Origin: Gammaproteobacteria bacterium
GTDB taxonomy: Bacteria; Pseudomonadota; Gammaproteobacteria; HK1
Reading direction: 5' to 3'
Assembly (NCBI GenBank): GCA_021773645.1
Contig: JAJFJU010000012.1
Coordinates: forward strand, 62,001 to 126,000
DNA length: 64,000 nucleotides
The first letter of the stretch is position 1. Each line of letters opens with the position of its first letter. Below the pieces are notes generated by a model. It was not told where the DNA came from. It saw only the letters and a list, made by a program, of their open reading frames with translations, and made no database searches. A program made the translations under genes and the position numbers. This document shows positions 45,499-48,555 of this stretch, one piece after another.

Positions 45499-46374
45499 TT
45501 AGCATTGGCGATGTAGTCGATGCACATACTCGAATAACACAAGCCCCGACAAAATCATCGCTGTTCCAGCCCAAATTTCCGCTGTTACCAGTTCTCCGTT
45601 TAACCCGTTTCCAAGCAACAAGGCAGCAACCGGAGTCAGCAGCGTAATCAACGCTACGCGCGTTGCCTCGACGTGGCGCAGTACGTAAAAGTAGAGGGCA
45701 AATCCCAACACTGAACCGACTATCCCCAGATAGAGAATGGATACCAGTGCCCGCTGGGGAATCGTGGTTGGCACCGGCTCTTCCATCAACAAAAACAAGC
45801 CGAGATAAAGTGGTACCGCCACCATCAAGGCACCAGTGGTCACGACCAGTCCGGGTAGCTGGGCATCAATCCGCTTCACTGCTACGGCACTGGCCGAGTG
45901 AACGATGGCAGACAGCAACACCCCGGCAATGCCGAGAGCCGCCTGTGGCCCGAGGGCTTGGCCACTGCTAAAGATCAGTGCCAGTCCACCTAGGCCCAGT
46001 AGCATGCCTGCCAGCCGGCCCGGCGTGAGCGCCTGCTCCGTGAGCCAGACCGTAGCCATTATCCCCGTCAGGATCGGTGACAATCCAAAAATTACCGAGA
46101 TCCAGCCGGATGGAATGAACTGCGCAGACCAGTACACCGAGAGCATAGCCAGAAACAGTCCCAGGCCTGCAGCTAGATAGGTCCGGCGAGCTTGCTGATG
46201 CCATGGCAGCCGGATGCGAAACAGCGTTAAAAGAAGCAGGCAAGCACTGACGCCAAGCACCATGCGCCCGGTTAATCCAAACAGATAACCCACCCCATCG
46301 GCGCTCCATTTAATGGCGAGCGGTGTGGTAGACCAGATAATGATTATCCCGATATAGGCTGTGGGGATAGACAC
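45499..46374 (-). CDS. EamA/DMT superfamily transporter with leader-controlled expression
   Basis: Inner-membrane exporter of 291 residues with ten hydrophobic helices in two EamA repeats (YIGIIIIWSTTPLAIKWS at the N-terminus is typical). The substrate is unknown; relatives export amino acids or small metabolites. GTG at 46374 follows GAGGAAAT. Upstream on the same strand are a small reading frame and an intrinsic terminator, so transcription into this gene may be attenuated. It is not closely related to the DMT protein at 13.6 kb. Confidence 0.88.
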   Translation of the reverse strand: MSIPTAYIGIIIIWSTTPLAIKWSADGVGYLFGLTGRMVLGVSACLLLLTLFRIRLPWHQQARRTYLAAGLGLFLAMLSVYWSAQFIPSGWISVIFGLSPILTGIMATVWLTEQALTPGRLAGMLLGLGGLALIFSSGQALGPQAALGIAGVLLSAIVHSASAVAVKRIDAQLPGLVVTTGALMVAVPLYLGLFLLMEEPVPTTIPQRALVSILYLGIVGSVLGFALYFYVLRHVEATRVALITLLTPVAALLLGNGLNGELVTAEIWAGTAMILSGLVLFEYVHRLHRQC

Positions 46375-46411: not shown

Positions 46412-46445
46412 AAAAAAGGCCGCAAGGCAAATGCCGTGCGGCCTT
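46412..46445 (-). terminator. Intrinsic terminator in the leader of the DMT gene (candidate attenuator)
   Basis: On the minus strand, AAGGCCGCA and TGCGGCCTT form a 9-bp stem with an inner GGC-ATTT-GCC stem, followed directly by TTTTTTCG. It stands 38 bp upstream of the DMT start codon and 27 bp after the leader frame stop. A full-strength terminator before the gene rather than after one points to attenuation. Confidence 0.8.
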
Positions 46446-46471
46446 CTCGGAAAAGTTGAAGCTGGACTAAA

Positions 46472-46549
46472 TTACAACATCAATCTCCCGTAGCCACACG
46501 TGCAGGTGTCTGCGCGCCATGCCAGGGGCAGGCGTACAGGGCTTTTCAT
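46472..46549 (-). CDS. Candidate leader peptide (25 residues)
   Basis: ATG at 46549 to TAA at 46472 encodes 25 residues, with SPVRLPLAWRAD in the middle and TCTCGYGRLML at the C-terminus. An in-frame ATG at 46573 would add 8 residues. Two Cys, two Thr, one Trp and one Tyr lie close to the stop and to the terminator at 46412-46445, as expected if ribosome stalling controls the hairpin. No clear ribosome-binding site was seen before either ATG, which lowers confidence. Confidence 0.5.
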   Translation of the reverse strand: MKSPVRLPLAWRADTCTCGYGRLML

Positions 46550-46610
46550 GTGGCGCTGAAATAGGGTGTTCATGGCGGCGGAGTCTCGCTTGCAGCGCAG
46601 AGGCCTGTCA

Positions 46611-46635
46611 AGAAAAAATGCCAGGCACAAGCCTG
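46611..46635 (-). terminator. Intrinsic terminator of the sigma-54 regulator gene
   Basis: On the minus strand, CAGGC-TTGT-GCCTG forms a compact hairpin followed by GCATTTTTTCT, 34 bp after the regulator stop codon. It separates that gene from the leader region of the DMT transporter. Confidence 0.75.
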
Positions 46636-46668: not shown

Positions 46669-48555
46669 CTATTTTGGTTTATCCACGTGCAGGGCCTTCA
46701 TCCGTGATGCCAATGTAGTCGGTTTGATGCCGAGCAATTCAGCGGCTCCATCCTCGCCTGATACTTTACCGTTGGTAAGTCGTAAGGCCATCAGAATGTT
46801 GGCGCGGTCACGGGCCAGTCGCTCTGCCTCGGTCAGGGGAAGGCTTCCCACTATTTCTCCCGCGGGATCAGTGTAAATTCGATCTGACTTGGAGCCTTCA
46901 CTCTCTAATCGGAATTGCAAACGATTACCTTTGCTTACGATGATTGCCCGCTCAATTACATTTTGTAGCTCACGTATATTGCCGGGCCAGTGGTAAGCCT
47001 GCAGTTGTTTCAGATTTGCCTGTGTGAGCTTTGGTTGTGGACGATTAAGACGGTGGCAGATCAGCGTGATGAAGTGTGTCGCGAGCAGAGGCATATCATC
47101 AATCCGCCCCCTCAGTGGTACCGCTTCAACGGGAAACACATTAAGCCGGAAGAACAGGTCCTCCCGGAAGCGTCTGGCCTTGATATCATCCTTCAGATCA
47201 CGGTTGGACGCTGCGATAATGCGTACATCAACCGTACGGGTTCTTTCTTCTCCCACCCGTTCGAATTGTCCTTCCTGCAAGACGCGCAGCAGCTTGCTTT
47301 GAAGTTCCATGGGTATTTCGCCAACCTCATCTAGAAAGATGGTGCCCCCATCGGCTAGTTCGAAGCGGCCAATACGGTTTCTGAGTGCGCCGGTAAAGGC
47401 GCCTCTGACGTGCCCAAAAAATTCACTCTCAAACAGCTCGCGGGGTATCGCTGCACAATTTACCCGGATTAATGGATGTTCATGCCGACTGCTCCGCTCA
47501 TGAATGGCCGAGGCGATCAATTCCTTGCCGGTACCTGATTCGCCGCTAATTAATACACTGGCATTGGTGGGAGCGACCAGCTCGACTTGGTGCAATACCT
47601 GCGTGATAGCATGGCTCTGTCCGACGATCCCCGCAAAGTTCCGTTCAACCTTGATTTCTTCTTGCAAATAGACATTCTCGGCCTCAAGCCGCTCTTTCAT
47701 CAGCTCGATCTCAGCATACGCCTGGCGCAATTTATGCTCAGTCTGTTTACGTTCTGTGATGTCCTTGAACACCACTACCGCGCCGGCTAGCTCACCATTT
47801 TCGATAATAGGGGTGCTGGTATATTCGACCGGAAAACTGCTTCCGTCCTTACGCCAGAATACCTCGTCCTCACAGTGATGAATCCTGCCATCTTGAATGG
47901 CTGCGTAGATTGGACATTCTTCACGGGGATAGGGGCTTCCATCAGTCCGCGTGTGATGATGCAGATCATGGACTGGTTTTCCGATGATGTCCTCGGGAGT
48001 CCATCCCGTCATTTCCACGGACGATGGGTTTACAAAAGTAGCAAGCCCGTTAATGTCGATACCATAAATACCCTCGCCAGCAGCAGATAGTATGCGTTCA
48101 TTCTGTCGCATCAATTGCTCGAATTCAGCCAGTGATTTTTTTCGTTCTGTGATGTCTTTAAATACCACGACCGCGCCCGCAAGTTCGCTATTTTTGTATA
48201 TTGGGGTGCTTGTGTATTCGACCGGGAAGCTGCTCCCATCCTTACGCCAAAAAACCTCGTTCTCTACGTGTCGCACAGCGCCATCTTTGAAGGCGGCGTA
48301 GATAGGACATTCCTTGCTGTGAAATCGTGAGCCGTCAGCCTTGGTGTGGTGAAGTGCTGGATGCATGGGTTGACCAATCAGTGCGCTTACTTGCCAGCCC
48401 AGCATGCGTGCAGCAGCAGGATTGAGGAAGGTGGTTTTCCCCTCACAATCGAGGCCATAGATGCCTTCACCGGCCGCCTCAAGGATTAGATCGTGTTGCT
48501 GCCTGATTTGTTCCAGCTCGCTCTGTGTTTGCGTCGACTGATCTTCTGCTGCCAT
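46669..48555 (-). CDS. Sigma-54-dependent activator with tandem PAS domains
   Basis: Enhancer-binding protein of 628 residues. PAS 1 (about 22-136) and PAS 2 (about 152-267) are near copies with a constant offset of 131 residues. A coiled coil (about 270-303) leads to an AAA+ domain with GESGTGKE at 338-345 and GAFTGA at 385-390, the motif that contacts sigma-54. A Fis-type helix-turn-helix ends the protein (AAELLGIKPTTLASRMKAL). There is no receiver domain, so the PAS pair is the sensor, possibly of a ligand or redox change. It is divergent from a hydrolase gene whose upstream region has a sigma-54-like promoter. Confidence 0.93.
   Translation of the reverse strand: MAAEDQSTQTQSELEQIRQQHDLILEAAGEGIYGLDCEGKTTFLNPAAARMLGWQVSALIGQPMHPALHHTKADGSRFHSKECPIYAAFKDGAVRHVENEVFWRKDGSSFPVEYTSTPIYKNSELAGAVVVFKDITERKKSLAEFEQLMRQNERILSAAGEGIYGIDINGLATFVNPSSVEMTGWTPEDIIGKPVHDLHHHTRTDGSPYPREECPIYAAIQDGRIHHCEDEVFWRKDGSSFPVEYTSTPIIENGELAGAVVVFKDITERKQTEHKLRQAYAEIELMKERLEAENVYLQEEIKVERNFAGIVGQSHAITQVLHQVELVAPTNASVLISGESGTGKELIASAIHERSSRHEHPLIRVNCAAIPRELFESEFFGHVRGAFTGALRNRIGRFELADGGTIFLDEVGEIPMELQSKLLRVLQEGQFERVGEERTRTVDVRIIAASNRDLKDDIKARRFREDLFFRLNVFPVEAVPLRGRIDDMPLLATHFITLICHRLNRPQPKLTQANLKQLQAYHWPGNIRELQNVIERAIIVSKGNRLQFRLESEGSKSDRIYTDPAGEIVGSLPLTEAERLARDRANILMALRLTNGKVSGEDGAAELLGIKPTTLASRMKALHVDKPK

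Follow-up and report, generated by a model that had tools for sequence, protein, structure and literature searches.

A probable leaderless tryptophan-codon attenuator upstream of an EamA/DMT transporter gene in Gammaproteobacteria and Zetaproteobacteria

Results

The gene of an EamA/DMT transporter located in the window (the whole stretch of 64,000 nt of DNA that was analyzed) is probably governed by ribosome-mediated transcription attenuation, which would rely on a leaderless leader ORF containing a single Trp control codon. The parts of this attenuator, their conservation, the alternative pairing of the RNA and the placement of the Trp codon were established by computation, first for the locus in the window and then for orthologous loci.

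Organization of the leader region

The transporter gene (45499..46374; GTG start; Pfam EamA, 106.4 bits) and the elements that precede it are located on the minus strand. Conservation with the congener G001 begins at a -35 element, TTGACA (46606..46611), and TTGAC is held at fixed spacing in 102 of 146 upstream regions. The element is followed, after an 18-nt spacer, by a -10-like element GAGACT (46582..46587), a weak match that is the same in three congeners. The leader ORF consists of 33 codons and a stop codon (46472..46573) and is also present in the congeners. It is apparently leaderless: only 8 nt separate the -10-like box from its ATG, so that the 5' end of the transcript is predicted to coincide with the ATG or to adjoin it. 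The encoded peptide ends with DTCTCGYGRLML, and translation could start at 46573 (33 codons) or at an internal ATG (25 codons). The former is favoured as the probable start because that ATG is held at a fixed distance from the promoter. A frame of 25 or 33 residues ending near the terminator, as given in the preliminary description of this region, is indeed present; its stop codon (46472-46474) is separated from the GGCC stem by 28 nt, not by 27 nt as stated there, and from the longer stem as drawn by 24 nt.

Segment 1 (GCCACATG; 46547..46554) has the 3' half of segment 2 as its partner, both in the minimum free energy structure (MFE) and in the locus-specific pairing of 91 loci. The Trp codon UGG (W19; 46517..46519), the proposed control codon, ends 12 nt 5' of segment 2. 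Segment 2 (46492..46504) is the antiterminator strand; it lies within the codons for CTCGYG and can form a 12-bp duplex with the 5' arm of the terminator. This arm constitutes segment 3 (46432..46443), the partner of which is either segment 2 or segment 4. A further hairpin between segments 2 and 3 (46448..46490) is predicted for the antitermination state, based on the MFE of the window sequence alone with a ribosome on the Trp codon. The intrinsic terminator (GGCCGCACGGC-ATTT-GCCTTGCGGCC and a T6 tract; 46412..46443) has its stem at 46418-46443 and its six Ts at 46412-46417, in line with the stronger terminator that had been noticed just before the DMT gene.

The leader RNA folds more stably than shuffled sequences (z = -4.4). 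Leader identity to two sampled congeneric genomes was 91% and 79%, and in all three congeners (window genome included) the ORF has 33 codons, the terminator matches and 18 nt separate TTGACA from GAGACT. Because of the folding z, the conservation in both sampled congeners and the family-wide statistics given below, the observation made in the window is genuine and beyond chance. Comparison of the window region with Rfam yielded five matches, all far below gathering scores, and 20 relatives yielded no match at gathering score. A simple scan of 4 kb for terminator-like sites returned 3, compared to 3.6 expected from shuffles; the real terminator of the DMT gene was missed by the same scan, probably because its stem carries a mismatch. 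The terminator previously ascribed to the upstream regulator gene is a 5-bp stem at 46622-46635; this ascription is weak, and the scan is at shuffle level (3 vs 3.6).

Further upstream, a domain search identified a PAS/sigma-54 activator gene (46669-48555). Its product combines a sigma-54 activator domain with two PAS stretches and has a weak HTH of the Fis type. This regulator adjoins the leader in two of the three congeners and is absent there in G001, and therefore seems to be unlinked to the DMT gene. In G001, a genome of the same genus, an alpha/beta-hydrolase-like ORF (named by eye) and not the sigma-54 regulator is found upstream of the leader, and the conserved block starts at TTGACA. 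The leader thus belongs with the DMT gene and not with the regulator. With a sigma-54 activator as neighbour, a sigma-54 promoter was also considered; it was rejected, as the spacing is off by one, GC is lacking at -12 and the upstream half is missing in G001 (by eye).

Conservation of the leader upstream of orthologous transporter genes

Orthologues were collected in two surveys. The first was carried out with a profile of three DMT proteins over named genome records and relied on two N-terminal peptide patterns, so that its yield of at least 49 orthologue loci is not exhaustive. These loci belong to Gammaproteobacteria, Mariprofundus and other Zetaproteobacteria, Thiotrichaceae, Hydrogenophilus and others, and two of the 49 are interrupted by contig ends. 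A hairpin-plus-T terminator was located within 400 nt upstream of the gene in 40 of the 49 loci, with arms mostly like GGCCACAG...CTGTGGCC and, in Mariprofundus, CGGCCAYGGG...CCRTGGCCG. Reading the upstream regions by eye revealed a promoter with an ATG some 7 nt past its -10-like box, from which an ORF of roughly 30 codons extends. Four orthologues (L046, L065, L066 and L074) lacked a leader by eye, which suggests that control was lost or replaced in some lineages.

In the second survey, a 29-row profile was applied to 369 Gammaproteobacteria genomes (E ≤ 1e-50; up to six candidates scored per genome). An orthologue was detected in 109 of these sampled genomes (∼30 percent), with one match each and two in one genome. 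After removal of 4 upstream regions under 230 nt and 9 identical ones, 146 distinct regions were left from 159. A promoter-ATG pattern was defined as TTGAC, 17-19 nt, nAnnnT, 6-8 nt and an ATG opening an ORF of 20-50 codons. It occurred in 102 of the 146 regions, compared to a mean of 0.15 in shuffles (maximum 1, 20 rounds) and to one occurrence on the reverse strand. The distance between the -10-like box and the ATG was 6, 7 and 8 nt in 40, 51 and 12 loci, respectively, while any other spacing from 0 to 39 nt was found at no more than 7 loci. Transcription by sigma-70 polymerase usually starts about 7 nt past the -10 box. Taken with the spacing of 6-8 nt, this predicts that the ATG lies at or next to the 5' end. 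We therefore predict a leaderless leader ORF, the transcript of which would start at or next to the AUG.

The family promoters combine a TTGACA-like -35 element with a poor -10 element (GAGACT, CAGACT, CACACT); the scan itself required A at position 2 and T at position 6. The poor -10 elements may reflect an activator or an unusual discriminator.

A scan for the full layout, with slightly looser promoter rules and the terminator required, was applied to the 146 upstream regions of Gamma- and Zetaproteobacteria. All parts were present in 98 regions, the ORF only in 8, and 40 gave no hit; since the loci are related, these and the other counts are not independent. Inspection by eye of 15 of the 40 regions without hit showed an ORF and a terminator with an off-consensus promoter in about ten, but not in the other five. 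ORF length was counted for ATGs located 100-420 nt before the gene, without a length filter, and all 103 ORFs opened by such ATGs comprised 23-49 codons. In 89 of 98 loci, the distance from the first stop codon in frame 0 to the terminator stem was 18-35 nt, compared to 2/96 and 23/87 in the other frames. Selection acts on the reading frame of the leader. The stop codon precedes the terminator stem by a median of 25 nt (98 loci), and the predicted length of the terminated leader is nearly constant (median 158 nt).

The full layout was found exclusively before DMT genes in 608,251 bases (window and loci, overlaps counted repeatedly, both strands). In the 2.49-Mb genome of the window, the promoter-ATG pattern occurred 25 times, compared to 18 in the control, and the DMT locus is the only one of these 25 matches in which a terminator follows a short ORF. 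One DNA match to the window leader, of 21 bases and with E = 0.18, was located at L013 (G052:C115) beside another family's orthologous leader, the ORF of which is the same as that of L152. This weak match proved genuine.

Two competing RNA helices covary

In the window, the leader ORF has an MFE of -31.2 kcal/mol, in which segment 1 pairs with the 3' half of segment 2. The 12-bp duplex of segment 2 with the terminator 5' arm amounts to -21.1 kcal/mol, and the downstream RNA including the terminator folds with -24.1 kcal/mol. Pairing was tested in 91 loci, left from the 98 after 7 near-duplicates had been dropped. The pairing of each sequence with the partner from its own locus was compared to that with partners from other loci by 10000 permutations, the main effects of each sequence being removed. 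For the 3' part of the ORF and its own terminator arm the sum was -199 (permutation sd 20.6), and for segment 1 and its own segment 2 region it was -464 (permutation sd 36.9); neither value was reached in any of the 10000 permutations. Segment 1 and the terminator arm, which are not partners in the model, served as a control pair and gave a null result in the 91 loci (6029 of 10000 permutations). Hence, the two competing helices covary locus by locus. Segment 2 was defined as the best duplex of each locus, a choice that favours pairing and was handled alike in shuffles and permutations. The permutation test is probably stricter under relatedness, because relatives can pair with one another. 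A comparison of the 2:3 duplex with single-sequence shuffles gave a weaker signal (mean z -1.29), with no more than 30 of the 91 loci falling below the 5th percentile.

When the RNA ahead of a ribosome on the Trp codon was folded without segment 4, the 2:3 antiterminator was part of the MFE in 62 of 63 loci. The ribosome-controlled attenuation layout suggested in the preliminary description is strongly supported by the covariation of the two competing helices and by the presence of all parts in 98 of the 146 upstream regions.

In many loci the antiterminator helix contains one bulged base between CUGYG and GCC (46492-46504 in the window, and relatives). Segment 2 resembles the terminator 3' arm with one inserted base, and 2:3 may thereby be kept weaker than 3:4.

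A Trp codon is conserved just upstream of segment 2

Between clades, the leader peptides cannot be aligned. The frame in which segment 2 is read differs, CGTGTGG encoding T-C-G in the genus of the window and V-W in L033, which shows that CTCGYG is the coding of an RNA segment and not a peptide motif. Conservation of LPLAWR and CTCGYG in relatives had been named as a check of the initial proposal; beyond the genus only the Trp is kept. A search of the 369 genomes of the class with the 33-aa peptide gave 11 matches, strong only in the three congeners, and the other 8 (E 0.0015-0.0084) were without the full layout in a scan of L083-L090. The leader peptide is too divergent to be used as a search query. 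In close pairs, changes by codon position display only a mild third-position excess. The peptides of the Mariprofundus loci L038, L040, L048, L049 and L051 are mutually alike (A.FGWL...R...LC), unlike those of other clades when compared with each other, and a constraint at the peptide level may exist in these leaders.

Trp is present in 86 of 91 leader ORFs and missing in 5. TGG occurs 113, 72 and 21 times in frames 0, 1 and 2 of these ORFs, respectively; the 113 Trp codons mostly come one to an ORF, unlike the classical run of control codons. The Trp stands at a variable distance from the end of the peptide (8 to 27 residues) and is the only near-constant residue.

The position of the codon relative to segment 2 was analyzed in the 73 of 91 loci in which segment 2 ends 7-30 nt before the end of the ORF (subsets of 64 and 63 loci in further computations, the latter for the ribosome-placed folds). 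In 37 of the 73 loci, the end of a Trp codon is located 8-16 nt before segment 2, compared to 8.8 with codons permuted (z = 10.2), and the next-best residue at this position is Met (z 2.1). The remaining 36 loci have no Trp codon in this 8-16 nt range. Distances of 10-13 nt are the most frequent (27 loci), and the window, with 12 nt, falls among them. Counted by frame, a TGG starting 5-21 nt before segment 2 was found in 48, 17 and 2 loci. In the MFE, 43 loci have the Trp codon in a 3' arm and 12 have it in a 5' arm, while 2 leave it unpaired; these differing arms indicate that one fixed structure does not explain the conservation. As the codon is paired in the MFE of most loci, UGG conservation may nevertheless be partly structural. 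A ribosome-masked stretch of about 26 nt is given in the accessible text of a published study (PMC13236596). According to our own estimate of the footprint, a ribosome with UGG in the A site at a distance of 10-13 nt would just free segment 2.

Proposed mechanism and alternative explanations

In the mechanism that we propose, the start at the AUG, translation of the leader and the polarity of the switch are deduced from sequence. Transcription would start at or next to the leader AUG, and a ribosome would load on the 5' end of the RNA. When the ribosome reads through, it would cover segment 2, 1:2 would then re-form behind it, 3:4 would form, and RNA polymerase would stop about 160 nt from the start. 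In an untranslated leader 1:2 would form too, and transcription would terminate. A ribosome waiting at the Trp codon, due to low Trp-tRNA or slow elongation, would break 1:2 and leave segment 2, about 12 nt ahead, free. The 2:3 helix would form before segment 4 is made, the terminator would be pre-empted and the transporter gene would be transcribed. On the best reading, Trp-tRNA shortage or slow translation at the Trp codon would turn the transporter on, a polarity known from uptake or biosynthesis genes rather than from substrate-induced export. The earlier suggestion that the exported metabolite could be the signal is not supported in this form; the anatomy of the leader indicates Trp-tRNA supply as the signal, and a shortage would switch the gene on.

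The leader might also act as a general sensor of translation stress. Any slowing of the ribosome early in the ORF, by ribosome-targeting antibiotics or low ribosome supply, would then suffice, with Trp as a convenient slow step, and the DMT protein would export drugs, like the systems of whiB7 or Listeria lmo0919. Sub-cut-off matches of the transporter to the exporter models YedA and YddG are in line with this view, and antibiotic-sensing uORFs are known from the accessible parts of two reports (PMC12121999, PMC11550727). The only amino acid at the critical position is, however, Trp (z 10.2; next 2.1), with a clear frame bias of TGG (48/17/2), and for a general sensor a particular fixed amino acid would be unnecessary. 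On the other hand, low amino-acid specificity is what a lone control codon would be suited to, and the one-codon case is treated as giving only a hyperbolic response in the part of PMC1183508 at hand; for this reason the general-slowdown reading is retained, as an unlikely one.

Far less probable is an arrest peptide, that is, a nascent leader peptide that would respond to a metabolite, perhaps the one exported, by stalling the ribosome at the stop codon or close to it, in the way TnaC responds to tryptophan. The leader peptides are basic, poor in Asp and Glu and carry one near-constant Trp, and those of Mariprofundus resemble each other. Against this, the Trp-to-end distance varies from 8 to 27 residues with no other near-constant residue, and a ribosome held at the stop codon, at a median of 25 nt before the terminator stem, is not expected to block the stem, which makes a stop-codon arrest peptide unlikely. 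The small-molecule-sensing stalling peptide put forward in the preliminary description is likewise not supported, in view of this distance, of the persistence of Trp alone beyond the genus and of the identification of CTCGYG as the coding of segment 2. It is also highly improbable that the terminated transcript of about 160 nt is itself the main product, acting either as an sRNA or as a small mRNA that encodes a trans-acting peptide, with control of the DMT gene being secondary. Its constant length (median 158 nt) and the precedent of Sinorhizobium meliloti rnTrpL/peTrpL, as proposed in the accessible text of PMC7298713, would suit such a role, which does not exclude the attenuator as the main reading. 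Yet the clades retain the antiterminator pairing although their peptides differ freely, and the leader was found only before the DMT gene in the 608,251 bases of window and loci. Finally, short ORFs are common and the simple terminator scan was at chance level here, but a fortuitous ORF between a promoter and an ordinary terminator has almost no probability left: it is already contradicted by the promoter-ATG pattern (102/146 vs 0.15), the conserved ORF length and stop position, and the permutation tests.

Properties of the transporter

The AlphaFold model of the transporter displays a DMT fold (pLDDT 93.3). The nearest solved structure is 5i20 (TM 0.80), which we take to be YddG, and the choline importer LicB (7paf) follows with a TM of 0.79. 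With both being close, import and export cannot be told apart by the fold. Searching the sequences of solved structures with the transporter gave no match. NCBIfam yielded only sub-cut-off matches, to the exporter models YedA and YddG, with the aromatic exporter model reaching 33 bits at a cut-off of 300. Neighbouring genes are not shared across clades; the largest family besides DMT was present at 10 of 49 loci (3-kb flanks, ORFs ≥90 aa).

Of 109 orthologue carriers, 106 are trpA-positive (by eye; the exceptions are G194, G304 and G350), so auxotrophy offers no explanation for a need of Trp uptake. Upstream of the three trpE homologues in the genome of the window, no ORF of 8-45 codons with at least two Trp was found within 400 nt, and none of the three passes the trpE_proteo cut-off. 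Because the control codon is Trp, we infer that the transporter serves Trp economy, either by uptake of Trp or a precursor or by export of something that accumulates when Trp is short.

Discussion

Trp-type attenuators are represented by trpL, hisL, leuL, ilvL and thrL of enterobacteria, and the classical form uses runs of control codons. The leader analyzed here shares with them the leader ORF, the 1:2, 2:3 and 3:4 helices, the intrinsic terminator, the control codon just upstream of segment 2 and the predicted read-through at charged-tRNA shortage. In contrast to them, it usually has a single Trp codon, its ORF has no Shine-Dalgarno sequence and is predicted to begin at the 5' end or directly beside it, its target is a transporter gene and not a biosynthetic operon, and a considerable distance separates segment 1 from the control codon downstream. 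A leader peptide linked to tryptophan is also known in TnaC, according to the accessible part of PMC12218461. Both peptides are short and contain a Trp residue. When Trp is high, TnaC stalls at its final codon and thereby occludes a Rho site; the leader described here has an intrinsic terminator, a variable Trp-to-end distance and the opposite predicted polarity.

Leaderless attenuators have been reported in other bacteria, and the following comparisons refer to the accessible parts of the cited papers. In S. meliloti trpL (rnTrpL/peTrpL), the AUG is located at the RNA 5' end (PMC7298713), as predicted here, and both leader ORFs contain Trp codons. The S. meliloti leader, from Alphaproteobacteria, precedes trpE(G) and encodes a peptide of 14 residues in which several Trp codons follow one another (PMC7298713), while the ORF described here has about 31 codons with one Trp and precedes a DMT gene in Gamma- and Zetaproteobacteria. 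The mycobacterial cysteine-codon attenuators (Canestrari 2020, as described in PMC9031893) likewise have a leaderless short ORF with codons that sense amino-acid supply for downstream genes; they differ in having contiguous Cys codons, in regulating downstream translation and in belonging to Actinobacteria (PMC9031893). In whiB7/wblC and lmo0919, too, translation of a uORF sets terminator or antiterminator, with resistance or export functions encoded downstream (PMC11550727, PMC12121999). These systems answer ribosome-targeting drugs, whereas the one precisely placed and conserved Trp codon found here points to an amino-acid signal.

The mechanism is hence of a known kind, trp-type attenuation, while the target gene, the lone Trp codon, the predicted leaderless start and the wide spread look new. 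A literature search found no report of such a leader before an EamA/DMT gene; as subscription papers were mostly beyond reach, an earlier report is possible. The older name of EamA is DUF6. Neither DUF6 nor a metabolite transporter is mentioned in the main text of a 2010 survey of premature terminators, as far as this was accessible (PMC2965389).

Tentatively, and with considerable doubt, we suggest that a leaderless Trp-codon attenuator devoted to one EamA/DMT gene is common in Gamma- and Zetaproteobacteria and that its transporter serves Trp economy by taking up Trp, indole or a precursor when Trp-tRNA is short. Such a function would, as far as we know, be a new substrate role for a bacterial DMT protein. 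The comparison of relatives decoded an intergenic stretch in which the peptide drifts while the helices, the reading frame and one codon persist. The results suggest that leaderless leader ORFs, reported in rhizobia and mycobacteria, act as attenuators in Gamma- and Zetaproteobacteria too. For a transporter about which sequence similarity and neighbours say little, the attenuator provides a testable lead to its job, namely Trp supply.
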